A stretch of 51,467 bases of DNA, taken from assembly GCA_035635555.1 (NCBI GenBank), contig DASQAT010000058.1:1-51467 (forward strand). Reading direction: 5' to 3'. Every line of letters begins with the position of its first letter. Position 1 is the first letter of the stretch. The DNA is from Candidatus Dormiibacterota bacterium (GTDB taxonomy: Bacteria; Acidobacteriota; Polarisedimenticolia; Gp22-AA2). The notes below the pieces were generated by a model. That model saw nothing but the letters and a program-made list of their open reading frames with translations, was not told the origin of the DNA and did not search any database. This document shows, in pieces, positions 7,098 to 50,500 of the stretch. The position numbers and the translations under genes were made by a program.

Positions 7098-8036
7098 ATG
7101 AGCTCTCCCGCCGCGGTCGCGGTCCATGGGCTGGTGCACGATTACGGCGCGTCCCGTGTCCTGCGCGGCGTCGACTTCACCGTCGGCCAGGGGGAGATCT
7201 TCGGTCTGCTGGGACCGAACGGTGGCGGCAAGACGACGCTGTTCCGCATCCTCGCGACCCTGATGCGACCGGTCGGCGGGCGGGCCCTCGTCTTCGGGCA
7301 CGACGTGGTGCGGGAGGCGCGCGAAGTGCGCCGGTCGATCGGCGTCGTGTTCCAGTCGCCGGCCCTCGATCGCAGGCTCACGGTGCGGGAGAACCTCGAC
7401 GTGCAGGGTCGACTCTACGGACTGGGCGGCGGAGATCTCCGCAGGACCACGGACGAGATGCTGGAACGCCTGCGCCTGCTGGACCGGGCGGAGAGCCGGG
7501 TGGATCGACTGTCGGGCGGACTGATGCGTCGCGCCGAGATCGCCAAGGGGCTCCTGCATAGGCCGCGTCTCCTGCTGATGGACGAGCCGTCCTCCGGGCT
7601 CGACCCGGGCGCGCGTCAGGACCTGTGGGACCTCCTGCGCGATCTGCGCGAGCGCTTCGGAACGACCCTCCTCCTGACCACGCACCTGATGGAGGAGGCG
7701 GATCGCTGCGATCGGCTGGCGATCCTGAGCGAGGGGACGCTGGTGGCCGTGGGCACGCCGCGCGCGCTGAAGAGCGAGATCGGCGGCGACGTCATCGTCA
7801 TCGCGACCGGCGCACCGGCCGAGGTGCGCGACGGGATCGAGAGCCGCTTCGGCGGCCCCGTGCAGGTCGTGGATGGCACGGTCCGTCTCGAGCGGCCCCG
7901 TGGTCACGAGCTGATCCCGCGCATCGTGGAGGCGTTCGCGGATCGCATCGACGCCGTGACGCTGGGGAGACCGACGCTGCTGGACGTCTTCATCCACAAG
8001 ACGGGGCACCGCTTCCTGGGGGACCAGGCGGCATGA
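7098..8036 (+). CDS. ABC transporter ATP-binding protein (exporter, DrrA/NodI-like)
   Basis: This is a 312-residue ABC ATPase of the ABC-2 exporter class. It has Walker A GPNGGGKTT (39-47), a signature reading LSGGLMRRAEIAKG instead of LSGGQ, Walker B LLLMDEPSSGLDPG and the switch His in LLTTHLMEEADR. A C-terminal extension after about residue 220 (ending VFIHKTGHRFLGD) is typical of DrrA/NodI-type subunits. Three in-frame starts exist at 7083, 7086 and 7098. The first two lie inside a TATGAT -10-like element (7082-7087), so 7098 is preferred. It pairs with the downstream permease by an ATGA overlap and opens the plus-strand operon. The exported substrate is unknown; an oxidase-maturation role is inference from position. 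Confidence 0.9.
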   Translation: MSSPAAVAVHGLVHDYGASRVLRGVDFTVGQGEIFGLLGPNGGGKTTLFRILATLMRPVGGRALVFGHDVVREAREVRRSIGVVFQSPALDRRLTVRENLDVQGRLYGLGGGDLRRTTDEMLERLRLLDRAESRVDRLSGGLMRRAEIAKGLLHRPRLLLMDEPSSGLDPGARQDLWDLLRDLRERFGTTLLLTTHLMEEADRCDRLAILSEGTLVAVGTPRALKSEIGGDVIVIATGAPAEVRDGIESRFGGPVQVVDGTVRLERPRGHELIPRIVEAFADRIDAVTLGRPTLLDVFIHKTGHRFLGDQAA

Positions 8037-8827
8037 GACCGCCGTTCGGAGCCGTCCGGGCCCTCGTGTGGCGCGAGGTGATCCGCTTCCTGCGGGACCG
8101 CAACCGGGTCCTCGGGGCCCTGCTGCAGCCGATCATGTTCTGGGCGCTGTTCGGATCGGGTCTCAGGGCCTCGTTCCACCCGCCGGTGCCCGGCGGCTCG
8201 ATTCCGTACGAGGAGTACTTCTTCCCCGGCGTGGTCGTGATGATCCTCCTGTTCACCGCGATCTTCTCCACGGTGTCGATCATCGAAGACCGGCGCGAGG
8301 GGTTCCTGCAGTCCGTCCTGGTGGCGCCGGTCCCCCGCTCGATCGTCGTTCTCGGCAAGGTCCTGGGCGGGACCTGCCTGGCGCTTGCGCAGGGGCTGGT
8401 CCTGCTCGTCCTCGCTCCCCTGGCCGGCATCGGGCTCACTCCCGCCGTGCTGGGCGAGTCGTGCCTGGTTCTGATCCCACTGGCCTTCGCCCTGACGGCC
8501 CTGTCGTTCTGCATCGCCTGGCGCATGGAATCGACGCAGGGGTTTCACGCCGTCATGACGGTCTTCCTGATGCCCCTGTGGCTCCTGTCCGGGGCGCCGT
8601 TCCCGTCCCTCGGTGCGCCCGCGTGGCTGCGGGCGCTCATCCTGGCGAACCCGGTGACTTACGGCCTGGCGGCGCTGCGTCGCGTGCTCTACCCGGCCAC
8701 GGCACCGGTCGTGGCGGGCCTGCCGTCGCTGGGTCTGTCGCTCGTCGTGACGCTCGCGTTCTGCCTCCTGACGTTCGGCGGCGCCCTGACCCTGGCTCGC
8801 CGCACCACGCGCTCGGCAGGCGCATGA
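8033..8827 (+). CDS. ABC-2 type transporter permease
   Basis: This 264-residue integral membrane partner of the ATPase shares an ATGA overlap with it at 8033-8036. It has six hydrophobic segments in the ABC-2 arrangement. The family-typical amphipathic entry FLRDRNRVLGALLQP precedes the first helix, and an EDRREGFLQSVLVAPVPR coupling segment follows the second. Near the C-terminus ANPVTYGLAALRRVLYP is the conserved NPhxyxhxxhR signature of DrrB/NodJ-like permeases. The end overlaps the start of the DUF420 gene by 4 nt. Substrate unknown. Confidence 0.9.
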   Translation: MRPPFGAVRALVWREVIRFLRDRNRVLGALLQPIMFWALFGSGLRASFHPPVPGGSIPYEEYFFPGVVVMILLFTAIFSTVSIIEDRREGFLQSVLVAPVPRSIVVLGKVLGGTCLALAQGLVLLVLAPLAGIGLTPAVLGESCLVLIPLAFALTALSFCIAWRMESTQGFHAVMTVFLMPLWLLSGAPFPSLGAPAWLRALILANPVTYGLAALRRVLYPATAPVVAGLPSLGLSLVVTLAFCLLTFGGALTLARRTTRSAGA

Positions 8828-9252
8828 GCGTGTCCGAGCTGCCGGCGCTGAACGCCTCGCTGAACGCGGCGAGCGCAGTCCTCCTGTCATTCGGATACGT
8901 CTGCATAAGACGAAGGCGGATCGCGGCGCACCGCGTCTGCATGCTCCTGGCGCTCCTGACGTCGGCGCTCTTCCTCGCGTCGTACCTCACCTACCACTAC
9001 CATGCCGGCTCCATGCCTTTCCGGGGAACCGGCTGGACCCGACCCGCCTATTTCACCCTCCTGATCAGTCATACGATCCTCGCGGCCGCCGTCGTGCCGC
9101 TGGCCCTGGTCACGGTGACGCGGGCCGCGAGGGGACGCTTCGACCGGCACGTCGCTATCGCGCGCTACACGCTGCCGATCTGGATGTACGTGTCCATCAC
9201 CGGGGTCGTCATCTACGTGGTGCTGTACGGTCTCGCCTGGCCCCGGCCCTGA
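8824..9252 (+). CDS. DUF420 (YozB-like) membrane protein
   Basis: This is a 142-residue protein with four predicted membrane helices. The family pattern is clear: AALNAASAVLLSFGY-like N-terminus, HRVCMLLALLTSALFLASYLTYHY, a TRPAYFTLLISHTILAAAVVPLALV helix and RYTLPIWMYVSITGVVIYVVLY at the end. The His residues in HRVCM, THYHYHAG-like loop and SHTIL are the ones conserved in DUF420. Members are commonly found beside cytochrome oxidase and SCO/cta genes, and are thought to help oxidase assembly; the exact function is not established. It links the ABC exporter to the Ehr genes, with 9 nt to the next start. Confidence 0.88.
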   Translation: MSVSELPALNASLNAASAVLLSFGYVCIRRRRIAAHRVCMLLALLTSALFLASYLTYHYHAGSMPFRGTGWTRPAYFTLLISHTILAAAVVPLALVTVTRAARGRFDRHVAIARYTLPIWMYVSITGVVIYVVLYGLAWPRP

Positions 9253-9261
9253 GGAGCGCCT

Positions 9262-9783
9262 GTGGCTCTGTTGTTCTCGAAGATGTGGCGCACCGGGATC
9301 GTCACCGAGGATCTCGGCCCCGGCGGTCCTGAGACGCTGCGCGTGGCGCGCGCGATCGAGGAGCGCACGCGACTCCTCCTGGGGCGGTCCCTCGCGATCC
9401 GCGAGGTCGACGCCGGCTCCTGCAACGGCTGCGAAATCGAGATCACCGCCCTCGCCAGCCCCGTCTACGACTGCGAGCGCTTCGGCGTCCGCTTCGTGGC
9501 CTCGCCCCGCCACGCCGACATGCTCCTCGTCACCGGGCCCGTGACACGCAACATGGAGCTGCCGCTGCGCAAGACCTGGGAGGCGACCCCCGACCCGAAG
9601 CTCGTCGTCGCCGTGGGCGACTGCGCCCGCACCTGCGGCGTGTTCGCCTCGTCTTATGCGGTCATCGGAGGCGTCGACCGGGTGGTCCCGGTCGATCTGT
9701 TCGTCGACGGCTGCCCGCCGGAGCCTGCCGACATCCTGCGCGGCATCCTGATGGCGCTCGACCGCCTGCCGGGACGGGCATGA
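9262..9783 (+). CDS. Ehr/group 4 hydrogenase-like small subunit (NuoB/HyfI-like, 4Fe-4S)
   Basis: This 173-residue soluble subunit is homologous to NuoB, HycG and HyfI. It would carry the single proximal 4Fe-4S cluster (N2 equivalent). The ligand pattern is complete: C54 and C57 in SCNGCEIE, C121 in GDCARTCGVF and C151 in VDGCPPEPADI. The SCNGCE form and PVDLFVDGCPP are characteristic of the group 4 hydrogenase branch rather than of NuoB, which has two adjacent Cys. The start is GTG with GAGGAG 5 nt upstream. The gene comes first in the module and shares ATGA with the next gene. It is an electron-transfer partner of the large subunit at 14847-16406. Confidence 0.92.
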   Translation: MALLFSKMWRTGIVTEDLGPGGPETLRVARAIEERTRLLLGRSLAIREVDAGSCNGCEIEITALASPVYDCERFGVRFVASPRHADMLLVTGPVTRNMELPLRKTWEATPDPKLVVAVGDCARTCGVFASSYAVIGGVDRVVPVDLFVDGCPPEPADILRGILMALDRLPGRA

Positions 9784-11810
9784 CCTCGACCGATGCGGTG
9801 ATCGGCTGTCTCGTGGTGATGGGGGCCGGCTACCTGGGGGCGGCCCTGCTGGCCGTGCTGCGCGCCGGTCGCAGGTCGGGTGTGGCTCTGGTCACATGCG
9901 GATCGGTGGCGGGCTCCGCCGCGGCGATCCTGGCGCTTCTGTCGGACGCGCAGGCCGGCCTGGGGTTCCCATCGCCCCTACCCGATCTCGCGCTCGTCTT
10001 CCATCTCGATGCCCTCGGCGCCGCGTTCCTCCTCCTGATCGGACTCGTCGGCGCGCCGGCGGCAATCTACTCGCTCGAATACGCGCCCGGCGGCCACTCC
10101 GCCGGAGGCGGCCGGCTCGCCGGGACGATGCTTCCCCTGTTCCTGCTCTCCATGAGTCTCGTCGTCCTGGCCGCGAACGTCTTCACGTTCCTGCTTTCGT
10201 GGGAAGGGATGTCGCTCGCTTCGTACCTCCTGGTGATCGACGAGGGAGACTCCCGCGAGCGCCGGAGCGCCGGCCGCTGGTACGCCGGGATGGCGCACGC
10301 CGGATTCGCCCTGATCGCGGCCGCGTTGTGGCTTCTGGGTGCCAAGACCACGGGGGCGACCTTCGTCGAGATTCGCGAGGCGGCCGCGACTCTTCCATCC
10401 GTGGTTCGCGATGTCGTCTTCCTGCTGGCGCTCTCCGGCTTCGGCTCGAAAGCGGGTCTCGTCCCCCTGCACGTCTGGCTGCCGCGGGTCCACCCCGAGG
10501 CGCCCAGCCATGTGTCGGCGCTGATGTCCGGCGTCATGCTCAAGCTGGGGATCTACGGGCTCCTGCGCGTCGGCCTCGATCTCCTGGGGGGCGGACCGGC
10601 GTGGTGGGGCGGTCTTCTTCTTGCGCTCGGGGTGATGTCCGCGCTGGGCGGCATCCTTTCGGCCCTCGTCGAGAACGACCTGAAACGCCTTCTGGCGCAC
10701 AGCAGCGTCGAGAACATCGGCATCATCTGCATCGCTCTCGGCATCGGGTTCGTGTTCCGGGCCTGCGGCATGACCGGGCTCGCCATCCTGGCGCTGGCGG
10801 CGGCGCTGTACCACGCGATCAATCACGCGGCGTTCAAGGGTCTCCTGTTCCTCGGCTCGGGCGCAATCCTGCAGGCGACCGGTACGCGCAACATGGAGGA
10901 GATGGGGGGACTCATCAAGAGGATGCCGCGGACGGCGGCCCTGTTCCTGATCGGCGCCGCGGCCATCGCGGCGTTGCCGCCGCTCAATGGGTTCGCCAGC
11001 GAATGGATGATCTTCCAGTCCCTCCTCGCCGGGGCCACCCTCCCCTATCCGTTCATGGCCGCGATGATGGCCGTGGCCGCGGGCATACTGGCGCTCACCG
11101 GCGGACTCGCGGCCGCCTGCTTCGTCAAGGCGTTCGGCATCCCCTTCCTTGCGATGCCGCGCTCGCTCCGATCCGCCGAGGCGCGGGAAGCGCCCTCATC
11201 GATGCAGCTCGCGATGGGCGTGCTCGCCACGGCCTGCGTCCTGCTCGGAGTCCTGCCCTTCCTGATGGCGCCGCTCCTGTCGAACGCCTTCCGCGATCTG
11301 CCGGGACTGTCCGGCGTCCAGGCCGCCTTCAGGATAGGCGTCGTGATGGAGGCGGGACCGGGCGCGGCCGGCGTCTCTCCGACCATCCTGGCCCTGTGCC
11401 TGCTGGTCGCGGGCGCTCTCCTGCCGTGTGCCCTGCTCGCGATCGGCGCGGCGCGTACCGCGCGGCGGGCGGAGACCTGGGGCTGCGGCCGCGCCACACA
11501 GACGGCGCGCATGGAATACACCAGTACAGCCTTCGCCGAGCCGCTGCGCCGGGTGTTCACCGATCTCTACAGGCCGACGAAGGACATCGCGATCGATTTT
11601 CACCCGGAGTCGAAGTACTTCGTGCGCTCGATCCAGTACAAGAGCAGTATCCGGACCTGGCTGGAGAATACCTTCTACAGACCCCTGTTCGACCTTGCGC
11701 GACCTCTGGCGGGCACCGGGCGGCTCATCCAGAGCGGTTCGCTGCACGTGTACGTCGCCTACATCGTGGCGGCGCTCCTGCTCCTCCTGCTGCTCGCGAG
11801 GTGGCTGTGA
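9780..11810 (+). CDS. Ehr antiporter-like membrane subunit (HyfB/NuoL-type)
   Basis: This 676-residue protein of the NuoL/MrpA/HyfB family has about 14-16 helices and a long C-terminal tail ending in a membrane helix, as in HyfB. The ion-translocation residues are in place: Glu in FLLSWEGMSLASYLLV, Lys in GFGSKAGLVPLHVWLPRVHPE, and His/Lys in YHAINHAAFKGLLFLGSG. A Pro-Glu-Ala-Pro turn (HPEAPSHVSALMSG) follows the Lys helix, as in all antiporter-like subunits. The stop overlaps the start of the HyfC-like gene by one base. The subunit is predicted to pump protons or sodium across the cytoplasmic membrane. Confidence 0.93.
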   Translation: MTSTDAVIGCLVVMGAGYLGAALLAVLRAGRRSGVALVTCGSVAGSAAAILALLSDAQAGLGFPSPLPDLALVFHLDALGAAFLLLIGLVGAPAAIYSLEYAPGGHSAGGGRLAGTMLPLFLLSMSLVVLAANVFTFLLSWEGMSLASYLLVIDEGDSRERRSAGRWYAGMAHAGFALIAAALWLLGAKTTGATFVEIREAAATLPSVVRDVVFLLALSGFGSKAGLVPLHVWLPRVHPEAPSHVSALMSGVMLKLGIYGLLRVGLDLLGGGPAWWGGLLLALGVMSALGGILSALVENDLKRLLAHSSVENIGIICIALGIGFVFRACGMTGLAILALAAALYHAINHAAFKGLLFLGSGAILQATGTRNMEEMGGLIKRMPRTAALFLIGAAAIAALPPLNGFASEWMIFQSLLAGATLPYPFMAAMMAVAAGILALTGGLAAACFVKAFGIPFLAMPRSLRSAEAREAPSSMQLAMGVLATACVLLGVLPFLMAPLLSNAFRDLPGLSGVQAAFRIGVVMEAGPGAAGVSPTILALCLLVAGALLPCALLAIGAARTARRAETWGCGRATQTARMEYTSTAFAEPLRRVFTDLYRPTKDIAIDFHPESKYFVRSIQYKSSIRTWLENTFYRPLFDLARPLAGTGRLIQSGSLHVYVAYIVAALLLLLLLARWL

Positions 11811-12751
11811 TGGTCCCTTACCTGCTCGAGGGGCTGCAAGGGTTCCTGACCCTGGCGCTTTCGCCTGGACTCATCGGGTTCGTCCGCCTGCTCAAGGCGC
11901 GCATGCAGGGACGGCGCGGGCCGGGGATCCTCCAGCCGTACCGCGATCTCGCGAAGCTTCTGAACAAGGAGCGGGTCGTCTCGACGCAGGCGTCCTGGAT
12001 CTTCCACGCCGCCCCCGGCATCCTGTTCGCCTCGACGCTCGTCGCCGGTCTCCTGGTGCCCCTCGTCGCCGCTCCCCTGCCTCTCGACCGTGTCGGCGAT
12101 CTCGTGGTCGTGGTGTACCTGCTTCTCCTCGGCACCTTTTTCCTGGCCCTCGCCGGGCTCGACACGGCCTCGGCCTTCGGGGGGATGGGTTCCAGCCGGG
12201 CCATGACGATCGCCGCTCTGGCCGAGCCCACGATTGCCCTGGCGATCTTCGGCATGGCGGTGGCGGCCGGCTCGACCAATCTGGGGGAGATCGTGGCGCG
12301 CACCCTCAGCCATCCCGAGGCGACCCTCAGCGCCGGCCATCTGATGGCCTTCGCGGCCCTGTTCATCGTCATGCTGGCGGAGACCGGCCGCCTGCCGGTG
12401 GACAACCCCGCGACCCATCTCGAGCTCACGATGATCCACGAGGCGATGACCCTGGAATATTCGGGCCCCTATCTGGCCCTGGTGGAGTGGTCCGGGCAGA
12501 TGAAGTTCTTCTTGTTCCTGGCGCTCCTGTCGAACCTGGTCTTCCCCTGGGGCGTGTCGGTCGAGATGACGCCGGGGGCGATCCTCGTCGGAGTCGGGGC
12601 CCTCGTCCTCAAGCTCGTCGTCCTGGCCACCGGTCTCGCGATCCTCGAGACCCGGCTGTCGAAGCTGCGCCTGTTCCGCGTCCCCGAGCTCCTGGGTGTT
12701 TCGTTCCTCCTGGCGCTTCTGGCGATCACCTCCTCATTCCTGGTGAGGTAA
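11810..12751 (+). CDS. Ehr membrane anchor subunit (HyfC/HycD/NuoH-like)
   Basis: This 313-residue subunit is homologous to NuoH. It anchors the hydrophilic arm and couples the redox site to the membrane pump. The cytoplasmic loop MQGRRGPGILQPYRDLAKLL matches the family's GRxGPxxxQxxxDxxKLL signature. The Glu-rich loop reads AETGRLPVDNPATHLELTMI, followed by HEAMTLEYSGP, the conserved charged funnel in this family. About eight helices are visible. It starts on the last base of the HyfB-like stop codon, and 4 nt separate it from the next gene. Confidence 0.93.
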   Translation: MVPYLLEGLQGFLTLALSPGLIGFVRLLKARMQGRRGPGILQPYRDLAKLLNKERVVSTQASWIFHAAPGILFASTLVAGLLVPLVAAPLPLDRVGDLVVVVYLLLLGTFFLALAGLDTASAFGGMGSSRAMTIAALAEPTIALAIFGMAVAAGSTNLGEIVARTLSHPEATLSAGHLMAFAALFIVMLAETGRLPVDNPATHLELTMIHEAMTLEYSGPYLALVEWSGQMKFFLFLALLSNLVFPWGVSVEMTPGAILVGVGALVLKLVVLATGLAILETRLSKLRLFRVPELLGVSFLLALLAITSSFLVR

Positions 12752-12755
12752 AACG

Positions 12756-13415
12756 ATGTCCGCCGAAATCTTCGCGCGCCTCGTGACCCTGGCTTCGAGT
12801 CTCGTCCTCCTCTCCGGGATCTCCGTCCTGTGGCGGCACAGTCTGCCGGCCTATATCCGGACGTTCGCGCGCCAGTCGTTTCTGTTCGTCCTGGCGATCC
12901 TTCTGGTGGCGGTGCAGGTCTCCGACGTCCAGCTCTACGTCGTCGCCGCGCTGGTGTTCGTGATCAAGGCGGTGTTCATCCCCCGCGTCCTGCGCCGCGT
13001 GCAGCGCCACGTCGGCGCCGACATCGAAGTCCGCCCGTACGTCAACACTCCCGTGAGCCTCCTGCTCGCGGGTGTCCTGACCCTCCTGTCGTATGCCGTC
13101 GCCTCGCCGGTCGTGAACCTGGGCGCCCTGCCGACGCGCGGAGGAATCCCGCTGGCGCTGGCGACGGTGTTCGTTGGCCTCCTCATCATCGTCAGCCGCA
13201 AGAGCGCTCTCACGCAGATCATCGGGTTCCTGGTGATGGAGAACGGCATCGCGCTGCTCGCGATCCTCGCGACATTCGGCGTCCCTCTCATCGTGGAGCT
13301 CGGCGTGTTCCTGGATGTCCTTCTGGGCGTCCTGGTCATGCAGGTGTTCGTGTACCGCATCCGTGAGACGTTCGACACGATCGACGTCGATCGCCTCAAG
13401 CACCTGAGGCATTGA
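12756..13415 (+). CDS. Ehr small membrane subunit (HyfE-like, NuoK-related)
   Basis: This 219-residue hydrophobic protein has six to seven helices. The second half resembles NuoK/MnhC: SRKSALTQIIGFLVMENGIALLAI holds the conserved Glu in a membrane helix (VMENGI), which in NuoK is required for proton pumping. The N-terminal half is the extra segment typical of HyfE. The order B-C-E-F-G of Hyf operons is followed except that HyfD is missing. The gene is preceded by GAGGTAAAACG and starts with ATG at 12756. Confidence 0.9.
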   Translation: MSAEIFARLVTLASSLVLLSGISVLWRHSLPAYIRTFARQSFLFVLAILLVAVQVSDVQLYVVAALVFVIKAVFIPRVLRRVQRHVGADIEVRPYVNTPVSLLLAGVLTLLSYAVASPVVNLGALPTRGGIPLALATVFVGLLIIVSRKSALTQIIGFLVMENGIALLAILATFGVPLIVELGVFLDVLLGVLVMQVFVYRIRETFDTIDVDRLKHLRH

Positions 13416-13419
13416 GACG

Positions 13420-14850
13420 ATGCTGCTGATCGCCCTGCTCCTGTGTCCGCTGCTGGCGGCCGCCGTGGCGCTCCCCGGGCTCCTCGGCCCGCGCCTTGCG
13501 GAGAGGACCGGCGCCCTTCTGTCGGGGCTGGCGTTTCTGCTGTCGCTGGTCGTCGCGGCCCGCGTCGCGGCGGAGGGGGTCGTGTCGATAGGTCCCGAGG
13601 AGTTCCTGCGCGCCGACGGACTGTCGGCAATCCTCCTGCTCATCGTGACGGGGGTCGCCTGGGTTGCGATGCAGTTCGGCGCAGGGGAAGACGCCCTCGG
13701 CCGCCGCTACCTCGTTCTGTCCCACACGTTCGTGTTCACCATGCTGCTGGCCGTGCTCATCAACAACCTCGGCATCATGTGGGTGGCCATCGAGGCGACG
13801 ACCATCGCGACCGCCTTCCTCGTCGGTCTGCACCGCACCCGCTCGGCCCTCGAGGCGTCCTGGAAGTACATCCTGATCGGTTCGGTCGGCATCGCCCTGG
13901 CCTTCATCGGGACGGTCCTCTCGTACTTCAACTTCGTGCAGCGGATCGGCGACCTGTCGTACGCCCTTCACTGGACCGTCCTGTCGCGCGTCGCGGCCGG
14001 GCTGGACCCCGACGTGACCCGCCTGGCGTTCGTGTTCCTCCTTGTCGGCTACGGGACCAAGGCGGGGCTGGCTCCGATGCACACGTGGCTTCCGGACGCG
14101 CATTCGGAGGCGCCCGCCACGATCTCGGCCATGATGTCGGGGTCGCTCCTGGCGGTCGCCTTCTACGCCATCCTGCGCTTCAAGGTCGTCGCGGACATCT
14201 GCATCGGGACCTCGTTCACGGACCACATGCTGATCCTGACTTCGGTCACGACGGTCGCGGTGGCGGCGACGCTCCTGGCCCGGCAGGCGAACTACAAGAG
14301 AATGCTTGCCTACTCGAGCGTCGAGCACATGGGCCTCATGTGCCTCGGCTCCGCGTTGGGGTCACTGGGTCTGGTGGCATCGCTCCTGCACGCCCTCACG
14401 CACGCCGCCTCGAAGTCGATGGTGTTCCTGTTGTCGGGTCGAATCCGCGAGCGCTATGGCACGACCCGCATCGGCTCCGTGCGCGGACTGCTCCGTTCCC
14501 TGCCCTGGTCCGGCCCCCTGTTCGCGGGCGGGGTGCTGGCTCTTCTCGGGCTGCCACCGTTCGGGGTCTTCACCTCGGAGATGCTTCTCCTGCGGGCCGG
14601 CTTCCTGGCGGGTCGGCCGTTCGTCACCGGGACCATCCTAGCGCTCCTGGTCTTCGTGTTCATCTCGATGCTGGGGCACCTGAACCGAATGCTGTACGGC
14701 GAGCCGCCGGAGAAGACGCCGGCCGGCGAAGACCCGCGAAGGCTCTGGCCTCTCGCCGTGAACGCCGCAGTCCTCCTCGTGCTGGGGGTCGTCGTCCCGG
14801 GACCCCTGATGCGCCTCCTGGACCGGGCGGCGGGAATCGTGGCTCCATGA
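13420..14850 (+). CDS. Ehr antiporter-like membrane subunit (HyfF/NuoN-type)
   Basis: This is a second Mrp-antiporter-like subunit, 476 residues with about 13 helices. Pump residues are present: Glu in IMWVAIEATTIATAFLVG, Lys in GYGTKAGLAPMHTWLPDAHSEAP and the His/Lys pair in LLHALTHAASKSMVFLLSG. WLPDAHSEAPATISAMMSG is the usual family signature after the Lys. It is somewhat shorter than E. coli HyfF. Its stop shares ATGA with the large-subunit gene (14847-14850), so the pump and catalytic arm are translationally coupled. Confidence 0.92.
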   Translation: MLLIALLLCPLLAAAVALPGLLGPRLAERTGALLSGLAFLLSLVVAARVAAEGVVSIGPEEFLRADGLSAILLLIVTGVAWVAMQFGAGEDALGRRYLVLSHTFVFTMLLAVLINNLGIMWVAIEATTIATAFLVGLHRTRSALEASWKYILIGSVGIALAFIGTVLSYFNFVQRIGDLSYALHWTVLSRVAAGLDPDVTRLAFVFLLVGYGTKAGLAPMHTWLPDAHSEAPATISAMMSGSLLAVAFYAILRFKVVADICIGTSFTDHMLILTSVTTVAVAATLLARQANYKRMLAYSSVEHMGLMCLGSALGSLGLVASLLHALTHAASKSMVFLLSGRIRERYGTTRIGSVRGLLRSLPWSGPLFAGGVLALLGLPPFGVFTSEMLLLRAGFLAGRPFVTGTILALLVFVFISMLGHLNRMLYGEPPEKTPAGEDPRRLWPLAVNAAVLLVLGVVVPGPLMRLLDRAAGIVAP

Positions 14851-16406
14851 GCCTTCAAGATGCCCTGCGCGAGCACGGCGCCACCGGATTCGTGGTGCAG
14901 GGAAATCGGAGCCGCTGCTCCATCTCCAGGACGGCCGCCCGCGGAGTGGCCCAGTCGCTCCTGTCGCGCTTCTCGCTGGAGCTGTACCTGATGCTGGCGA
15001 GCGACCGCCGGGCCACGAAGGGAGCGTTCGAGATCCTCTGGCTGTGGGCCGATCCGCGCCGGAACTCATTCGTCGAGGTCACCACGGATGTTCCGGAGGG
15101 CAACCCCTCCTTCCCCTCCATCGCCACGCTGTCGTATCCCGCCTCGCGCTACGAGCGGGAGATCTTCGATCTGTTCGGTCTGCACCCCGAGGGGCATCCC
15201 GACCCGCGTCCTCTCGTGCGTCACGGCTTCTGGCCGGAGAGCTTCCATCCACTGCGCAAGGACGCTGGCGTTCCCGGCGACTTCAAGGACCAGGGCCAGC
15301 CGTTCCCCTTCCAGCAGGTGGAGGGTGAGGGGATCTTCGAGATCCCGGTCGGCCCCGTGCACGCCGGCATCATCGAGCCGGGACACTTTCGATTCAGCGT
15401 GAACGGCGAGACCATCATCAACATGAAGACGCGCCTTTACTACACGCACAAGGGAACCGAGAAGCTGTTCGAGGGGCGCGCGCCGGACGACGGTGTACCT
15501 CTGGCGGAACGGATTTCCGGCGACACCTCGGTCGGCCATCCGCTCGCCTATTGCCAGGCGCTCGAGACCTTGGCGGGGGCCGTGGTCCCGCCACGCGCCC
15601 TGTTCCTGCGCGTGGTTCTGCTGGAGCTGGAGCGCCTGTACAACCACGTCGCGGATTTCGGAGCCATCGCCAACGACACCGGGTTCGCCGTGGCGCAGGC
15701 GCACACCCTCCGGATCCGCGAGGGGCTCCTGCGCCTGAACAAGCGGCTCACGGGCCACCGGCTCCTGCGCGGCGCGCTGCTGCCGGGGGGCCTGCGCGCG
15801 GATCTGCCCGCAGACGCCGCCTTCGTGCGCGAGGTCGATGCGGCTCTGTACGATTTCCTGGAGGTGGTGACGATCTGTCAGGCCAACAGCATGCTTCTCG
15901 ATCGTCTGCGTGGCACCGGGATCCTGACCCAGAAGACGGCTCTGGACCACGGCGTTCTAGGCTATGTGGCACGCGCCTCCGGGATCGACCGTGACGCGCG
16001 GCGCGACCACCCGTTCGCCGCATACGACCGGCTGAAGTTCAGGGTGGCGCTCAGGGATTCGGGGGACGTCCAGGCGCGGGCCGAGATCCGCGTGGACGAG
16101 GCGCGCGAGTCGGTGGCGCTGATTCGCCAGGCCGTCGAAGCGATGCCCGCCGGCGGCGCCGTGCGCGTGCCGCTCGGACCGCTGCCGGCCTGGGAGAGCG
16201 CCTTCGGCCTGGTGGAGGGCTGGCGCGGGTCGATCCTGCACTGGGTGCGGGCCGCCGAGGGGACGCGGCTCGATCGTGTCAAGGTCAAGGACCCATCGTT
16301 CGTCAACTGGCGCCCGCTCACCTTCGCCCTCCTGAAAAACATCGTCCCGGATTTCCCGCTCTGCAACAAGAGCTTCAACCTGTCGTACTCGGGGAACGAT
16401 CTCTGA
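14847..16406 (+). CDS. Ehr large subunit, NuoC-NuoD fusion lacking all Ni-Fe cysteines
   Basis: This 519-residue protein resembles HycE/HyfG. A NuoC-like domain (about 1-165, with FPSIATLSYPASRYEREIFD and DLFGLHPEGHPDPR) is fused to a NuoD/NiFe large-subunit domain. The N-terminal Ni-Fe motif, normally ERICGICGxxH, reads ERISGDTSVGH, so S224 and T227 replace the cysteines. The C-terminal motif, normally DPCxSCTD, reads NLSYSGND, so S513 and G516 replace the other two. The protein stops two residues later, with no tail for maturation cleavage. It cannot hold a Ni-Fe site, which fits the Ehr complexes described between complex I and group 4 hydrogenases. The real substrate is unknown. HyfG/HycE-type H2 activity is excluded by these residues. 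Confidence 0.93.
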   Translation: MSLQDALREHGATGFVVQGNRSRCSISRTAARGVAQSLLSRFSLELYLMLASDRRATKGAFEILWLWADPRRNSFVEVTTDVPEGNPSFPSIATLSYPASRYEREIFDLFGLHPEGHPDPRPLVRHGFWPESFHPLRKDAGVPGDFKDQGQPFPFQQVEGEGIFEIPVGPVHAGIIEPGHFRFSVNGETIINMKTRLYYTHKGTEKLFEGRAPDDGVPLAERISGDTSVGHPLAYCQALETLAGAVVPPRALFLRVVLLELERLYNHVADFGAIANDTGFAVAQAHTLRIREGLLRLNKRLTGHRLLRGALLPGGLRADLPADAAFVREVDAALYDFLEVVTICQANSMLLDRLRGTGILTQKTALDHGVLGYVARASGIDRDARRDHPFAAYDRLKFRVALRDSGDVQARAEIRVDEARESVALIRQAVEAMPAGGAVRVPLGPLPAWESAFGLVEGWRGSILHWVRAAEGTRLDRVKVKDPSFVNWRPLTFALLKNIVPDFPLCNKSFNLSYSGNDL

Positions 16407-16480: not shown

Positions 16481-17098
16481 ATGGCGCACGCTGCGACCCT
16501 GAACGGCGTCGAACGTTACGAGAACCAGCTCACCCCGGGTTGGGGGAAGCTGATGATGTGGGTGTTCCTGTGCTCCGACGCCATGTCGTTCGCGGGGCTC
16601 CTGGCGGCCTACGGGGCGGTCCGGCTGGGGAGCTCGGACTGGCCGGTTCCGGCCACGCACCTGGGTGTGCCGCTCACCGCCCTCAACACCTTCATCCTGA
16701 TCTGCAGCAGCGTCACGATGGTGAAGGCGCTGTCCGCCATCAAGCACGGCGATCGGAAGGGGCTGCTCGGTTACCTCGGAGCGACGATGCTCGGTGGCGC
16801 CACCTTCCTCGGGATCCAGGCGTACGAGTGGACGCATCTGATCATGGAGGGGATGACGATCCAGTCGAACCCCTGGGGCGTCAACACTCTGTTCGGCGCC
16901 ACCTTCTACATCCTGACCGGGTTCCACGGCTGCCACGTCCTCTCGGGAGTCATCTACCTGTTCTGCATCTTCGTGCGGGCTCTCCAGGGGGCGTACAGCG
17001 CCGAGAACAACAGCTCGGTCGAGATCGTCGGCCTGTACTGGCATTTCGTCGATCTGATCTGGATCCTCGTCTTCACATTTGTCTACTTGATCGCCTGA
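16481..17098 (+). CDS. ctaE: cytochrome c oxidase subunit III
   Basis: This is a canonical 205-residue COX3 with about five helices (the short bacterial form lacking helices I and II). The conserved membrane Glu is E116 (FLGIQAYEWTHL). FGATFYILTGFHGCHVLSGV and VEIVGLYWHFVDLIWILVF are signature stretches. It lies 74 nt after the Ehr large-subunit gene and 23 nt before subunit IV, on the opposite strand from ctaC-ctaD. A leader segment holds TTGAAT and TAAAGT 19 nt apart (16408-16438), a weak promoter candidate. The start ATG at 16481 is preceded by CCCCAGG. Compared with the 1991-2584 paralogue, this copy keeps the family Glu and is the likelier structural subunit. Confidence 0.93.
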   Translation: MAHAATLNGVERYENQLTPGWGKLMMWVFLCSDAMSFAGLLAAYGAVRLGSSDWPVPATHLGVPLTALNTFILICSSVTMVKALSAIKHGDRKGLLGYLGATMLGGATFLGIQAYEWTHLIMEGMTIQSNPWGVNTLFGATFYILTGFHGCHVLSGVIYLFCIFVRALQGAYSAENNSSVEIVGLYWHFVDLIWILVFTFVYLIA

Positions 17099-17121
17099 AG
17101 GCGGCGCGGAGGACGGCACAC

Positions 17122-17424
17122 GTGAGCGGAAAGCCCAGCGAGCACGCCGAGCCGAACTACTGGATGGTCTGGCTGTCCCTCGCCGTCCTCACCGTCGTCG
17201 AGCTTCTGGTGGCCCAGGTGCAGGGGGCGCGGGCCTTCGTCATCTTCTCCCTGTGCGCCCTGGCGCTGGTCAAGGCGGCGCTGGTGGCCGCCTACTTCAT
17301 GCACCTGAAGTTCGAGAAGTACGCCCTCATCCTGATCGTCGTGAGCCCGCTCCTCCTGTCGGGCATTCTGTACGTGGGGCTCGTCCCCGACGCCATCACG
17401 CACATTCACTGGCTGGCGCACTGA
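17122..17424 (+). CDS. ctaF: cytochrome c oxidase subunit IV (prokaryotic, caa3 type)
   Basis: This is a 100-residue protein with three hydrophobic segments. The pattern NYWMVWLSLAVLTVVELLVA at the start and LVKAALVAAYFMHLKFEKY in the middle helix is the prokaryotic COX4 signature (small subunit of caa3/aa3-type oxidases). Start is GTG at 17122 with GGAGGA 8 nt upstream. It probably stabilises the oxidase encoded on the other strand together with subunit III. The next gene begins 7 nt after its stop. Confidence 0.9.
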   Translation: MSGKPSEHAEPNYWMVWLSLAVLTVVELLVAQVQGARAFVIFSLCALALVKAALVAAYFMHLKFEKYALILIVVSPLLLSGILYVGLVPDAITHIHWLAH

Positions 17425-41338: not shown

Positions 41339-41559
41339 GCATCAACAGATTCGCCGTAATTTGAGCACTGCCGACTGCTGGATCGTTAAAACTTGAGTGA
41401 GGTCGTAGTGGGGGGGCTCCCATTCGCCTGCCTCTCCCCTGATCAGGGGTCCGGTAGGTTCACGCCTTCCGTTTTTTCAGCCTCCGGGCTTTGCCCGGGG
41501 GTAGTCATGGCCTCTTTTTCCGCCGCAGAAGCTTTCGCAGCCCACCAAGGAGGACAAGA
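41339..41559 (+). promoter_or_regulatory. long structured 5' leader of the giant subtilisin-family gene
   Basis: This stretch has no gene. It contains a 14-bp perfect palindrome CCCCTGATCAGGGG (41436-41449) and a nine-base-pair hairpin with a TTT loop (41481-41501). A T-run (41472-41477) precedes the hairpin and another (41514-41519) follows it at a distance. An AAGGAGG (41547-41553) precedes the ATG at 41560. I could not match it to a known riboswitch. The intergenic region from 41185 to 41559 otherwise holds only the two divergent promoters. Confidence 0.5.
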
Positions 41560-44500
41560 ATGAACGCACTTTCGAAGATAAAGTGCAACCGGACGACCCT
41601 TATCATCCTGGGTCTGTGCCTCGTACTGGCCGGACCGGCGATGCTGCTGTGGGCATCCCGTGCCCCAGTTGCCCTTCCTGACGGAGGGGGCATCGATGCT
41701 CAGATGGAGCAGCTGGAGATCGAGCGAATCTCGCACGCCCAGCTGCCTCATGCGACGCTGCGTCCCGAGGGGTTCTCCCCCTTCGGGCAGGCGTTCAAGA
41801 ACGGGCCGGCCAGGACCAAGGGGGATTCCGCCGGGCTCCTGCGGATGAACATCGGTGACATGGACCCGAAGAATCCTGACGCGCTCCTCTCTGCCATGCC
41901 GGCGGAGCTCCGCCTCGGCGAGAAGGAGAAGCAGGGTCTCGGTCCGAAAGGCTCCCTGACGCCCGGTCTCAACTACGCCATGTTGAGCCCGCAGGCTGTG
42001 TCCTCGAAGTCTCTCGATGCCGTCCTCGAGGGGATACGCTCCTCGGCACGGATCATCAGCGTGGGGCAGAACGCCACCCTCTTGATTTACGTGTCGGCCG
42101 GCCAGATCGGTCAGATGCGCCAGAACCCGGACGTCGTCTTCTTCCAGGGGATGCCTCCGGGAGACAAGATCAACCTCACAACGGCCAGAACACCGCTCAT
42201 CGAGGCGGCCCGCGCCGTCGACCCGAACCTGCTGCTGGAGGTGTCCCTCGTCCCGGGAAGTGACGCGGCCGCCGCGCGGCAGGAGATCTCCCGCGTTCCG
42301 GGCATCGGAAACATTTCCGATTATGGTCCCGCCGGCTCGGCTCTGCTGGTGCGCGCGGACTACAAGGCCTTGAGCAAGCTGGCCCGGATCAAGGACATCC
42401 TGAACATCCAGGAAAGCATGGAAATGATGTCCCTCAACGCCAGGAACGTGCCGGCGGTCCAGGTCGGCACCGACCAGTTGTCGAACCAGGCCAGGCCGTT
42501 CGATGATGCGGGCCTCGACGGCGGCGGCAGCGGCGCCCTCCTCTGCACGAACAACCCGGCGCAGGCCTGCACGACCGACGCAGGCTGCACGGCGCCCGGT
42601 CTCTGCCGGCTGCAGTTCTACAACAACGGCACGGCGGCCGTGCCGCCCCAGATCGTCGGCGTGCTGGACAACGGGATCAGCGCGGACACTCCGAGCTTCG
42701 CACATAGCGCCACGCAGGTGACCACCATCGTCAATCCATTCGGTCCGGCGCACCGGAAGATCCACTCGATCATCAACGTGCGCGACAACGGCAATGACTG
42801 CGACGCGATTCTTGACGGGGGCGGCAGCCACGGCAACATAGTCGCCTCGGTCATCGCGGCCTGGCCGACCGGCGTCGGCGCCTTCGCCACCCGCACGAGC
42901 ATCGGCCTCAACGGACAGCCGCGGGGCTCCAATCTGGACGGTGTGGCGCGCCGGTCGCGCATCATCGTGTCTGATATCGCCGACAAGAGCCGCTGCACCT
43001 TCAACTCCCTGGTGGAGCGCGGCGGCAACGTCGATCCGGGCAGCCTGGCCTCCCGCCTGGGCGAGTTCATCTGCCCCAAGAGTGGCGGCACGGGTGCCTG
43101 CGCCGGGATCACCGGCGGCGGCACCGAGGTCCACATCGCCGTGACCCCCTTCGGCGCGCCGGACAACTTCTCGACCGTCCAGTTCCAGGGGAACGACGGC
43201 AAGTATCTCCAGCAGTCGGTTGACATCGACACGTTCCTCTACAACAACCGTGATTTCACGGTCGTCGGACCGGCCGGGAACAGCGGCGTCCTGATCAGCT
43301 CGAGCCGGCCCGATTTCTGGACACCCCGCGTGATTCCGGACTTCTTCGATGGAACCGACACGGATGACTGCGTACCGCCCTGCGACCCGGCCCACTACGT
43401 GGTCAGGAACATCCAGATCCCGCCCCCGATGACGGCCAAGAACATCATCACGGTCGGCGTCACCCGCGCGGACGAGGACACCTTCTTCAAGGATTTCGAC
43501 AATCTTGCGAACATGGCGACTTATTCGTCCCGCGGTCCCGCGACGCCTGAGTCGCTCCGCATGGCCCCCATCGTGGACGCGCCGTGCTGCGACCTGGGAG
43601 CCGGGGTCTTCGACTTCTCGTCGGTGGCCGGGTTCCGCAGTCGCGACGACGACAACCTCGGGCCGGTCGACGCCACGATCGACGAGGGGAACTACGGATC
43701 GTCCTACGGCGCCGCGGCGGTCACTGGGGCGGCAGCCCTGGTGCGCGACTACTTCGCGCAGGGCGCCTATCCGACCGGAGCGCAGGTCACGGGGAATCGA
43801 GTCCCGAACGTCTCCGGCGCCCTGGTGAAGGCGGCCATGGTCGCCTCGGCCAGGTTCACGACGAATATCCGGACCCCGGGTGAGGGGGGCAAGACGACAC
43901 CGGACAAGATTCTGCGGCGGTCGCGTTTTGCAGATCTCGGGACGATCTCGAACCATAACATCGGCCTCATGGGGAACAGCGAGCAGGGTTACGGACGCGT
44001 CGTGATGACCAGCGTTCTGCCGCTCGCGAACTTCTCGAAGCACTTCCGCGTCGGTGGTGTCGATCCCGCCAATGGCGTGAGATGGACCGCCGGCAATACT
44101 CCTCCGGGGCCGATGCACTGGGAGTATCCGGCGGAAGGGCTCCTCGTCTGGGACGACATCGCGACGGGTGAGCTCGCCATCGACAACGCGCACACGTCTC
44201 AGACGCACACCTTCCGCGTGACTTCCGCCGAGTGTGCGGTGGCGGCCGACGGGGGTCAGGTCGCCTCCGCCGGACAGCTGCGCGTCGGGCTGGCCTGGAC
44301 CGATCCTCCCTCTCTCCCCGGCGCCGGCGGACCGCTGGTGAACGATCTCGACCTCGTGCTCGAGAGTCCGGGTCCGAACAACTGTCTGGGTGCCGGCGAT
44401 ACCAAGCCGGATGGCACCATCTGCCCGGCCGGCTCGGAGACCGACAACTTGTTCTATGACGGGAACCGCTACGGATCCAGCAGGAACCCGTTCGTCGACC

Positions 44501-47500
44501 AGTGGTCCCTGGCGAGAGTGTCCGGCCAGCCGGAGACTCACGATCCGCGGAATCCACAGGAAGCTATCCACCTGACTTTCGACCGCAACAATGACACGAG
44601 CCCGGCCGATTCTCAGATCTATACAGGGACCTGGCGGGTCACGGTGAAGAGGGGCGCCGGCGGCGCGGTTGCGGGTTCGATCACGATCACCGGCCCGAAC
44701 GAGGATGCGAACGGCAACCGTCGCCTGGACGCCGGAGAGGATACGAACGCGAACGGCCTCCTGGACCTGGGTGGACAAACGTACGCCCTGCTCGTTTCGG
44801 GGCCGGTCTTCAAAGATGCTGCCGAACCGCCTCCTGCGAAGGGCCCCGCGGCCTTCCCGCAGAGCGCGGTCACGCTCGACAAGATCAGGTACTCGTGCGA
44901 GGACACGATGGTCGAGACGATCGTGGACTCTACTCCGGGTGCCGGCGCGAGCAGGTCGTCCGCTTTCGCCACGTTCGTCGTCCGCAATGCCGCGGGCGCC
45001 ATCGTCGATACCGAGTCTAACGTCCCGTTCGCCGGGTGTGGCTGCGGCGCTGGCACGGAATCGTCAGCCATCCCGATTCGCAACGTCCCGTCCCCCGCGC
45101 CGAACAACGGCATCCTCGAGGCGGACACGGGGATGACGATCACCAATACCTACGCCCCGCCAGGCCAGGTGGTCGTCACCGCCTCGGTCAAGGTCGACTG
45201 CTCGCCGAACTTCGTCACCAGTTCGTTCATCATTCCGCAGACTCAGGGATTCGGTCCCCAGATCGCCAACAATGGCGGTACCTTCCTGAGGCCGGGGACC
45301 CAGAGCGCGGGGTTCGGTCCCCAGACCCAGATCGGCGGCGGCTGCGACAACGACGACAGCCTCGACGCGGGCGAAGTCCTGACCTACGGAATCGCGCTGT
45401 CCAACCGCGGCCGCGACTGGCCCGGTGACAGATCGGACGATTACGATGACGTGAAGGCCACCCTCACCCCCTCCGGGACCGGCGCGGGTGCCATCACCGT
45501 TCTCGACTCGCCGAAGAACCTGGGTCGGATCCCGCCCGGCCAGCCCCAGGGGGCCTACTTCCACGTCTCCGTCAACGCCGCGGCGGCAAACGCCCTGGCC
45601 ATTACCGATCGTCAGGTGACGATGACGCTGACGCTGGACTCCCTGAACAAGGGGCGGCGGATCAGCCAGCAGTCGTACACGTTCACGAACGTCATCAACG
45701 CCGATCGCGAGACGCTGCACTACTCGACTGACTGTCTCGCGGGGCCGGGGCTGACCTGCCGCGGCGTGCGCGACCTGAACCGTAACCAGCTCATCGACCG
45801 CCCCGACGTCATCGACCCGGTGCTCCTGTTCATCCTGCCGGACGAGGACGTCACCTTCTCGTCCCTGTTCACGACGATCGGCCCGGGCAGCACCCTCGTC
45901 AGCAACACCCTCGGCGAAGATCTGAACAACAACGGCGTCCTGGACGCGACCGAGCCGGACGTCCTTCCGAACGGCATTCTGGACCGCGGCATCCTGATCG
46001 CCGCCTCGGGGCCGACGGTGGGCGGCGACAAGGTGCCCTGGAATTTCGACTCCAACAACGGTGGATGGCTCTCGGTTCGTCATCCATCGAGCACCGCGAC
46101 GAACATCAACGCCAACCCGATGTGGGAGTACAAGACCAACGGAATATGCGGCTTCCAGACCTCCGGCGGGTTGAACAAGTTCGGCATCTGGCACACGGGT
46201 GACGGCGACGTGGCGACGCCTGTCCCCGGCACCCCGTGCGACAACTACTCCGTCCCGAACTCCATCACGACGGAAAACAGGGTCGAGCTCGTCGTCGACG
46301 TCCTGCAATCTCCCGTCATCGCCAAGGTCAATCAGCTCCCCGACACTCGCGGCTTCTCGTACGGCGTCGAGTTCAAGCGGCTTGGAGTCAACGTCAACGA
46401 CGAAGTCTGGGACGCGGGCTACACCGGGACGGCTATCAACATCGACAACGACCTGGACAACGACACGACCGACAACTTCCTGAACCAGGAGCTGGACGAC
46501 TACTACGCCCGTTACGGTGTCTGGCCGTACGGCAGCGTCGTCAACCTTGCCGCCGGGAACGGCTTCGGGTACGGCGGAATTGATCCGAGCAGCTACTTCC
46601 CCTACCAGAGGACGTTCGGCCCGCTCAACGACCCGAACGGCGGCACCCCCTTCGATGGAGGCTTAGAGACCGGCTTCACCGGCAACATCGCGGCCTCGAG
46701 CGGAGGCTCCACGCGCATTTCTCCCATCCCGCCGGCAGTTGACCAGGACTACCAGAAGTTCCCGCAGCCCGGCTCGGCTGTTCAGGGCGTCTGCACCGGC
46801 GGCACCAACCCCGGTGGTCCCTGCCAGTCGAACACGGACTGCGCCGGTGGCGGCACCTGCACGCTGGAGAGCATCACGATCGCCGGGCCGGTCCGGAACT
46901 TCGAAGAGACGCTCGTCGGCTTCGAGGGCGGGTTCTCCGTTCCAACCTTGTTCGGGACCTCGTCCCCCGAGGGCACGGGCGGCATCTACAACGCGGGCCC
47001 GGCCGGAAACCGCTGGGGGATCGCCTTCGGCTTCTGGAGCATCGAGTCGCTCACTCTGGCCCAGGACTACGGCTTCGGCCTGGACGACGTCGTCTTCGAG
47101 TGGGACGAGTTCCACCCGAAGGACGAGTCGGCCTTCGCCCCGCCACACGCTCCGGCCTGCAGTCGGTTTGGGACGCCAGGGAACCCGGCCGGAGGCCAGT
47201 GCGCCACCATCACGGTCGACCGCACCAGCCTGTACGAGTGCGAAGAGTCGGTCGAGATCACCGTCGACGACCCGAAGCTGGCTGGCGCACCGCCCGCGAG
47301 TGTCCAGGTCATGATAGTCAGCGACAGCGACTCGGACACTTTCTCCACGTCCCGGTTCACCGTCCTGAAGCCGAACACCAAGCGCTACACGCTGGCGTCG
47401 GTCGGGGGCGGTCTGTTCAGGGGCAACGTCACCTTCTCCGGGACCTCCAACACGTCCAACAACGTCTTCGTCCAGGCCGGCACCGACGTGCAGTTCATCG

Positions 47501-50500
47501 TCTACTACCTCGACCCGAACTGCGACGGTGATGGCGACGGTCAGGCGGGCGAAGACCTGTTCGACAATCTGGACGGTGACGGCGTCAACACCGCGACGGA
47601 CAACTGTCCTCTCATCTACAACCCCACGCAGGCGGACGCCGATCTCGACGGTGTCGGCGACCTGTGCGACAACTGCGTGAGCGTGTCCAACGCCAGCCAG
47701 GACGACGCGAACGCCGACGGCGTGGGTGACGCCTGCGAGTTCGACGACGTGGACGGCGACGGTGTGGAGAACGGCACCGACAATTGCCCGGACGTCTACA
47801 ATTCCAGCCAGGCCGGAGTCTGCGTCAACGGCACCAATAATGGCGTGAGCTGCCTGGCGGACTCGACATGTACGGGAGGCGGCACCTGCTCCAAAGTCCG
47901 CGGCTTTGCGTGCTCCAGCGGCACACAGGACCTCGACGGCGACGGACGGTTCGACGTCGCTGACAACTGCGTGCTGTCGTCCAACGGCAACCAGCGCAAC
48001 CTCGACGGGGACGGTCTGGGTGACTCCTGCGACGGCGATTGCGGCCTCCTCACGGTGGTGAAGATCTGCAGCAACGCGCCGGCGACAACCTGCACGAGCA
48101 ACACCGATTGCCCTGCGGGCGGCACGTGCCAGACCGAGGTGCGTCACGCTCCGTCGGCAAACTGCTCCATCAGCGACGACGACGCCGACGTCGACGGCGT
48201 GCCGGACAACGTGGACAACTGCCCCGACATCGCCAACCCGGCGATCATTCCGACCACGAACCGGCAGCTCGACAGCGACCGCGACGGCCTGGGGGATGCC
48301 TGCGACCCGGCCGGATCGCTGGACGATGACTTCAACGGCATTCCGGACGACCTGGTCTCCTTCGCCGGGACGGTGGCCTGCCAGCAGGTGGACCTCGCCA
48401 ACCTGTCGGTCCTGCAGGCGGTCTACACCGACATCGACGGCGACCACGATCTCTTCCCCGATCCCGGCGAGACGGGGCTGGTGCAGGTCCGAGTCCAGAA
48501 CAACGGCAAGGCCCTGACGGGGGCGAGCTTCGTTCTCACGTCCTCCGATCCGAATGTCGACTGCATCACGTTCCCCAGAATCGTGGCCGGGGATCTGCCG
48601 GCGGGTGGTTCGGTCCTGCTCGGGAGCCTGACGCCGCTGCAGACCGGATCGAGCTTCACGTTCCGCGCCAAGAACACTCTGGAGAGCACGGCCGCGAGCA
48701 CCGCCAAGATCCACCTCTGCGTCACCGCGATCTCCAACGAGGTCCTCGGAGGTACGGCGTGCTTCGACCTGCTGGCCGACCTCGACATAGCAGGTGGCGG
48801 CAGCGAGACGTTCATCGCCGGACCGGACGGCATCCCGGGCAACACAGATGACGGCACGCTGGAAGAGACCTTCGACACGGACCGCAATGGCGACGGCAAG
48901 TTCTCGACCGACGACATCTTCCGGCTGCAGGACGCCGGCTCGGGTCTCGTCGGCCACGCCACCTACATCCATGGCAGCGCGACGGGCGTCGGCACGGACG
49001 TGGTCGCGGGTATCGCCTGCGGCGGGTACTCCACACCGGCCCAGGGGAACCCCGCCTGCATCCTGCAGCCGAACTTCCCGATGGACTGGCACTTCCATTG
49101 CCCGACCGCGGACGGCCTGCCCACCGGCAAGTGTCCGAACACCGAGCCGGGCGGCTTCGGCGCGGGGGGCCATGTCCCGTGCGTCGGCGGCTGCTCCTAC
49201 CAGACGCCGGCCGACGGTCAGAGGGCGTTCACGCCGCCAAACTCGTTGCACATGGGGGCGCACTTCGATTCAGCTTCGGCCGCGAACGGCGACTCGACGC
49301 ACCTGCGCACTCTGCAGGCCCTGCAGTCGAATCCGATCAACATGGCCTACGCCCCGCGCAGCGCGTCCGATCTGAAGTTGTCGTTCTACCACATCGTCGA
49401 CATCGTCGGCGGCGACGCCGTCAGCGGCGGTGTGGGACTGTGCCACGACTGCGCCCTGGTCCAGATTCAGACCGACCGCAACCACGACCCGGCGGTGGAT
49501 GACTGGGGCCCCTGGTCGACTCTGGCGCCGTTCCAGAACATCTACGACAAGCAGGTCCGTGCGTGGAGCAACTTCGGGCCACAGTACTGCGAGATCACGC
49601 CGGTCGACACGGGCACGGCTCCGCCCGCTCCGCGTGGCGTGCACGAAACGATGTGCTTCAACGAGCGCGCCTGGTCGCACTGCGGCAGCGCTGGCGGCAC
49701 GGGCGCCAGCCAGGCCTTCAATTGCTCCGGTGGCGTCGTCGATCCCGGCGGCACGGGCGTCTGGGTCCAGTCCAAGTTCAACCTGGACGGTTTCCTCGGT
49801 CAGCGGATCCGGATCCGGTGGATCGCCCAGACCTGGAGCCTGGACAACGTATCCGATTCGTACTTCGAGCGTGGCCCGGGATGGAGCGATACGCCGCATG
49901 ACGACGGCTGGTGGCTCGACAATATCGACATCACCGGCGTGGTCACGGCTCAGGTCACACCCGACCCCGACCCGAAGCCGCCGGTCCCGGGCAGCTGCCC
50001 CACCGGGCTTGCAAACTGCGACGAGAACGCCTCCTCGACGGACAAGGGGACGCTCCCGGCGATCAAGGTGACAGACCTGCAGGGGAACGTGTTCGGAGCC
50101 AGCCTGTCGCCCGTGGCAGGACAGTCGATCCTCGTCACCGGGGCCGCATCGAGCATCCCCGGAGGATGCACGAGCGGCGGTGCGCAGTTCCAGTTCACCA
50201 AGAACGGCAGTCTGGTCCAGGATTGGAGCAGCAATCCGGTCTACAGGGATACGGCCACTGAATACAGCCCGACCTACCGTGTCCAGGTTCGCTGCAGCTC
50301 GGATACCTCCTGCACCAGTGTCAACGGCGCCTCTGTCAAGCTCGCCATCTATGACGGAGTCAACACCGATTCGGACTGCGGCCTGTCGCTAGGGAACACA
50401 GGCGTCACGTACGTGGGCGGCACGACCAAGACCACAACCCTGACCTTCAGCCCCGCTGGAGGCTCGCTGGATATCTACAAGGGCGGTGTTACGACTCTGG

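Follow-up and report, generated by a model that had tools for sequence, protein, structure and literature searches.

What does a complex do that is built like a membrane-bound group 4 [NiFe] hydrogenase and has lost every ligand of its metal site? The question is raised by a tight six-gene operon, hyfI-B-C-E-F-G, in a 51,467-nt stretch of DNA (contig DASQAT010000058.1 of a Candidatus Dormiibacterota bacterium placed by GTDB in the Acidobacteriota), hereafter called the window. Its last gene, hyfG, is an intact, open reading frame of the HyfG/NuoCD type. The product, P0001, matches the Pfam families Complex1_49kDa and Complex1_30kDa, and its best PDB sequence match is E. coli HycE (7z0s_E, E 4e-68), followed by complex I NuoD and P. 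furiosus MBH. The CxxC...CxxC Ni-Fe ligands of active group 4 [NiFe] hydrogenases are not found in P0001; alignment with HycE and the family alignment both put S224, T227, S513, and G516 at these positions. The protein ends one residue past the L2 motif and thus has no cleavable tail (33 aa in E. coli HycE and HyfG). An AlphaFold2 model (pLDDT 92.4) has HycE as its top structural match in the PDB (7z0s_E, TM 0.94). The original prediction, made from the sequence, that the four cysteines are replaced, that the extension for maturation cleavage is absent, and that the fold is well conserved was borne out in all three respects; it also read the last motif correctly as NLSYSGND, but the block conserved across the family extends further, as NKSFNxSYxGxDL. 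Its view that this is a functional lineage and not a decaying one is upheld by 66 homologues from many phyla that lack the four cysteines at the same places, which rules out sequencing error or decay as the cause of the changes.

Table 1. Features of the operon and its flanks, with positions in the window.
Feature	Position	Strand	Remarks
ABC permease	8033-8827	+	overlaps start of DUF420-like gene
Membrane protein resembling DUF420 oxidase-cluster proteins	8824..9252	+	9 bp before hyfI; no Pfam match
hyfI/ehrS-type small subunit, NuoB-like, 173 aa	9262..9783	+	one predicted [4Fe-4S] site, C54, C57, C121, C151, and fifth conserved C125; no fused ferredoxin domain
hyfB-type antiporter-like membrane subunit	9780..11810	+	E142, K224, K353 conserved
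hyfC (NuoH-like) membrane subunit	11810..12751	+	E139, D198, E205 conserved
hyfE (NuoK-like) membrane subunit	12756..13415	+	
hyfF antiporter-like membrane subunit	13420..14850	+	E125, K214, K332 conserved
hyfG/ehrL-type large subunit (P0001, 519 aa)	14847..16406	+	NuoC-like N-domain and NuoD/hydrogenase-large domain; all four Ni-Fe Cys substituted
Former L1 motif ERISGDTSVGH (residues 221-231)	15507..15539	+	S224, T227 replace Cys; invariant D226 at 15522-15524
D277 codon	15675..15677	+	corresponds to D139 of complex I Nqo4; present in all 66 Ehr, variable in Cys-intact hydrogenases
Former L2 motif NKSFNLSYSGNDL (residues 507-519)	16365..16403	+	S513, G516 replace Cys; N507, K508, D518 invariant; C-terminal tail absent
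Cytochrome c oxidase subunits III and IV (cox3, cox4)	16481..17424	+	directly after hyfG, 74 bp gap

The combination of homology to group 4 hydrogenases and complex I, four missing Ni-Fe cysteines, and antiporter-like subunits in the operon upholds the earlier assignment to Ehr, a known family of which the window gene is one more member. The original descriptions, by Coppi in 2005 and Marreiros in 2013, reportedly concern a group 4-like complex without Ni-Fe ligands and with antiporter-like subunits. The window complex is almost certainly a six-subunit Ehr, with the gene order of the Rv0082-Rv0087 type. That it is not a Ni-Fe hydrogenase, as also predicted, is supported by the replaced cysteines and by the maturation genes: HypD is missing from the window's genome (G000, 99.2% complete) and from every member of its order searched, so that no Ni-Fe cofactor can be made, and was found in 135 of 294 genomes of the phylum. 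In M. tuberculosis, Rv0082-Rv0087 are listed as oxidoreductase, oxidoreductase, HycD, HycP, HycQ, and HycE (PMC6901956), and have been called an EHR of undetermined function that is not a hydrogenase (PMC6728331), in the parts of these papers covered. Other sources, likewise covered in part, suspect redox-coupled translocation for Ehr (PMC6349859) or report that the Ehr proteins of G. sulfurreducens rise on formate (PMC7894505). Function is given as unknown throughout the literature covered, and neither an assigned function for Ehr nor a description of a cluster-less form came up in a search of its available portions, with Coppi and Marreiros represented through citing papers; a C. necator fitness study does not treat Ehr in the portion covered.

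Ehr operons are widespread. Among GTDB contigs, the order I-B-C-E-F-G occurs in Acidobacteria, Rokubacteria, Deltaproteobacteria, Chloroflexi, and one cyanobacterium, while Nitrospirota and others have B-C-E-F-G-I; plasmid copies are found in Rhodococcus, Rhizobium, Burkholderia, Variovorax, and Methylocalor. Many loci (L038, L042, L044, L057, L074, L096-L098) carry a small Rv0081-like ArsR-type regulator gene just upstream, and the regulator beside a related operon has M. tuberculosis Rv0081 as its best PDB match (6jmi, E 2.7e-22). Upstream of the Nitrospirota operons lie genes for one or two small homologous proteins with the motifs NPNHPNLTIWHNKI and VCLFVGIHCHQSN (L056 210-1576, L053 540-1049). 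Two genomes of the window's genus (L161, L162), without window-type Ehr at this site, have another Ehr type with a ferredoxin-fused small subunit. No gene for a HyfH/NuoI ferredoxin-type subunit, formate dehydrogenase, NADH module, or other electron-input module is present in the window operon; two separate nuoD loci lie elsewhere in the genome. Across Ehr loci, no conserved electron-donor gene adjoins the operon, the only recurring neighbors being the ArsR regulator and scattered genes, and no adjoining sulfur-metabolism genes were seen.

The ancestry of the complex was read from two trees. Ehr had been described as lying between complex I and the group 4 hydrogenases. However, in the first tree, rooted on a NuoD outgroup and with SH-aLRT branch support, it is part of a clade (support 100, starred) nested within active group 4 hydrogenases, beside HycE/HyfG (82). 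In the second, three Cys-intact proteins form the sister group of Ehr as a whole (support for Ehr 95, starred), and the Nitrospirota homologues L053-L056 group with the window sequence in the trees. The sister proteins (L082 9861-11510, L083 9231-10844, L099 8833-10509) have all four Ni-Fe cysteines and no C-terminal tail, their genomes have HypD, and they appear to represent an uncharacterized hydrogenase-like type in the same phylum. Since this Cys-intact sister is also tail-less, the Ni-Fe cysteines were lost after the tail, most simply once. The window complex descends from group 4 hydrogenases: its Ni-Fe site and maturation tail have gone, and the Glu, Lys, and His residues that make up the proton channels of its membrane arm have been kept, being conserved in HyfB, HyfC, and HyfF. 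A position inside active hydrogenases with cysteines in relatives had been named in advance as evidence against the prediction; at the level of the clade, the trees give this in part. The large subclade to which the window sequence belongs is nevertheless Cys-less throughout, and the conclusion of a functional Cys-less lineage therefore stands. A second Cys-less lineage, with ERFTGTSAVAH / ATFGLSTAEGDR (L121 3670-5226) and ERFAGSTAFSH / ATFGLSVAENDR (L122 8632-10206), does not fit the main Ehr signature and is not included in the counts given here, which cover 66 Ehr large subunits. In Chloroflexi, four group 4 hydrogenase large subunits (L062 6247-8010, L063 9782-11587, L064 9791-11482, L066 9782-11596) have an in-frame UGA at the second L1 Cys (ERICGI-UGA-GCVHST), a candidate selenocysteine in an unusual position; a hairpin 3′ of the L062 UGA folds no better than shuffles.

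In place of the Ni-Fe ligands, Ehr has conserved residues of its own. D226 and D277 are invariant in all 66 large subunits, as are I176, E262, H267, R376, D383, W488, N507, K508, and D518, and S513 and G516 are each found in 65 of 66. In Cys-intact hydrogenases, position 226 is I, V, or A and position 277 mostly E, F, L, or G; the sister group has A or V at the first and G at the second. D277 aligns with D139 of complex I Nqo4, but the Nqo4 quinone-site residues H38 and Y87 correspond to I176 and G225 in P0001, which thus lacks the complex I quinone-site pair. The conservation pattern suggests that the former Ni-Fe site became a fixed polar site in its own right, formed by D226, D277, N507, K508, and mostly S513 and N511, with the shared R376, D383, E262, and H267; judging from their positions in homologous structures, these residues would line one cavity. 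Neither the two gained invariant aspartates nor the fifth cysteine and cluster-less forms of the small subunit (described below) are mentioned in the portions of the literature covered, and priority for the first two is uncertain.

In the window's HyfI, the motif GDCARTCG carries C125, and this residue is conserved with the four cluster ligands in nearly all of the window clade, Nitrospirota and a Rhodococcus plasmid among them. In several other Ehr and in the sister group, HyfI is longer and carries an N-terminal ferredoxin-like domain, which is intact in some proteins and degenerate in others. Six genomes of one Chloroflexota class encode small subunits in which at least two, and up to all, of the four ligands are substituted. 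The five Cys positions read D, A, A, G, D in L052 (Baikal Chloroflexi); T, P, C, S, D in L163; S, A, C, R, H in L170/L187; N, V, C, R, F in L171/L188; S, C, G, D, S in L172/L189; and C, G, C, H, N in L174/L191, whose genome also has a canonical Ehr. The cases beyond L052 came from a search of its class; its family and order yielded no close relatives. Operons are complete in L163, L188, and L191 (order B-C-E-F-G-I) and in L052 (I-B-C-E-F-G), and starred tree branches force at least two independent cluster losses. All six cases keep D226, D277, K508, and most of the pocket, and in L052 and L163 the channel residues are kept save for a few positions, e.g., K224R in HyfB of L163. Reading frames of the small subunits are open, Pfam Oxidored_q6 is recognized, and a representative is predicted at pLDDT 87. 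These relatives, known from draft genomes, are the strongest new result; they appear to have dispensed with a cluster that is intact in the window's own complex, although L174 and L172 retain some ligand cysteines.

These observations suggest how the complex might work. The account we favor, for which we put the chances at about even, combines Ehr identity with a pump driven or gated at the pocket. Ehr would be an ion pump or valve whose former Ni-Fe cavity holds an acidic pocket, and protonation or ligand binding at D226/D277, not H2 chemistry, would drive or gate ion movement, the event being passed via HyfC to the antiporter subunits. D277 occupies the place of the acidic residue by which complex I links protonation of quinone to pumping. 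The sole redox center of the window clade would be the small-subunit [4Fe-4S] cluster with its extra cysteine, and no electron donor would be wired to it. Because cluster-less relatives still conserve the pocket, we take the cluster to tune or gate the pump, perhaps in redox or O2 sensing, and not to carry energy, the gating role being a guess. The loss of the cluster where the pocket signature stayed also suggests that Ehr pumping need not be redox-driven. That the mechanism is gated at the pocket and not obligatorily redox is a serious possibility that falls somewhat short of even.

A redox pump is nearly as likely for the window's complex. A soluble donor would bind the small subunit at its exposed face and send electrons via the [4Fe-4S] cluster to an acceptor, quinone or some other, located in the former Ni-Fe cavity. 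Protonation of this acceptor would drive pumping, much as in complex I but with a shorter wire. The four ligands and C125 are strictly kept in the window clade, which argues that electrons matter there; the match of D277 to D139 fits such a pump, as do the redox-coupled translocation suspected in PMC6349859 and the formate response in Geobacter (PMC7894505), which, from the parts covered, suggests a redox role. In other Ehr clades, the small subunit still has a fused ferredoxin domain feeding the proximal cluster, which stands against a non-redox reading for the family; redox function is therefore ancestral in Ehr and probably still at work in the ferredoxin-fused clades. However, the quinone residues H38 and Y87 are replaced, the operon has no donor subunit, and complexes that have lost the cluster keep this pocket. 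In its boldest form, the pocket-driven or pocket-gated reading would be a stepwise departure from electron transfer: the invariant two-aspartate pocket took the place of the Ni-Fe site, the ferredoxin wire went next, and some lineages then gave up their last Fe-S cluster, leaving a redox-free machine driven or gated by a proton-coupled or ligand-binding event at the pocket. We consider this sequence less likely than not.

The surroundings of the operon raise a further explanation, in which Ehr is functionally tied to the cytochrome oxidase of the gene cluster. The ABC permease, the putative DUF420-like gene, Ehr, cox3, and cox4 lie on one strand with small gaps, cox1-cox2 are divergent and upstream, and COX1 is also near Ehr in L040, L076, and L080. 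The Ehr operon and the oxidase genes are probably co-transcribed in this organism. However, most Ehr operons have no oxidase nearby, and the DUF420-like gene, cox3, and cox4 occur together without intervening Ehr in G128 and G019 of the same genus and at one locus of the family member G193. In G128, the operon has apparently been deleted: the gap (L203 8330-8500) contains sequence similar to ~20 bp at the start of hyfI and ~27 bp at the end of hyfG. The linkage is thus lineage-specific, a conserved link to the oxidase is rejected as a general rule, and a functional tie seems unlikely. Elsewhere in the window, a very long open frame at 41491-50835 (+; 3114 aa) probably encodes a secreted protein that is subtilase-like and has Asp-rich repeats of the calcium type.

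Less likely again is that the cluster itself reduces a substrate, as in the archaeal sulfane reductase MBS. That complex (6u8y) is homologous and likewise has an incomplete Ni-Fe site, and the extra cysteine beside the cluster would suit such a role, but there is no ferredoxin subunit to supply electrons, sulfur-metabolism genes were not seen beside Ehr, and relatives that share the pocket have lost the cluster. Chance retention of a dead or decaying hydrogenase would explain the absence of Ni-Fe site and HypD and the apparent deletion in a same-genus genome, but is refuted by the strict invariance of the new residues across phyla and by an intact six-gene operon spread over phyla and plasmids, and has next to no probability.

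If the pocket-driven or pocket-gated reading is true, a redox-free relative of complex I would bear on how chemistry is coupled to pumping. Ehr is spread among soil bacteria, nitrifiers, plasmids, and M. tuberculosis; its invariant aspartates are direct targets for mutation, and the natural cluster-less versions offer a clean test of the need for electrons.

Known Ehr are likewise group 4-like, with antiporter-like subunits and no Ni-Fe ligands; in the window clade, the small subunit has a single cluster, a fifth cysteine, and no ferredoxin part. Rv0081-Rv0087 of M. tuberculosis, a putative formate hydrogenlyase/EHR, has by its gene list the same order, regulator-I-B-C-E-F-G, whereas the window operon has no ArsR gene and lies within an oxidase cluster. 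With group 4a HycE (formate hydrogenlyase) and HyfG (hydrogenase-4) systems, the window complex has in common the fold and HyfB, C, E, and F; unlike them, it has no Ni-Fe cysteines, tail, HycB/F or HyfA/H ferredoxin subunits, or HypD. Archaeal MBS, also a group 4-derived complex, is homologous (6u8y_L), but the window complex has no ferredoxin subunit and a different ligand pattern. Complex I (NuoB/CD/H/L/M/N) is homologous throughout and shares the aspartate at D277; the window complex has neither H38 and Y87 nor the NADH module. In O2-tolerant group 1d hydrogenases, the small subunit holds a [4Fe-3S] cluster with six cysteines. Both they and the window complex have extra cysteine beside the cluster, but the window complex has only one, and its position relative to the third ligand is +4, not +5.
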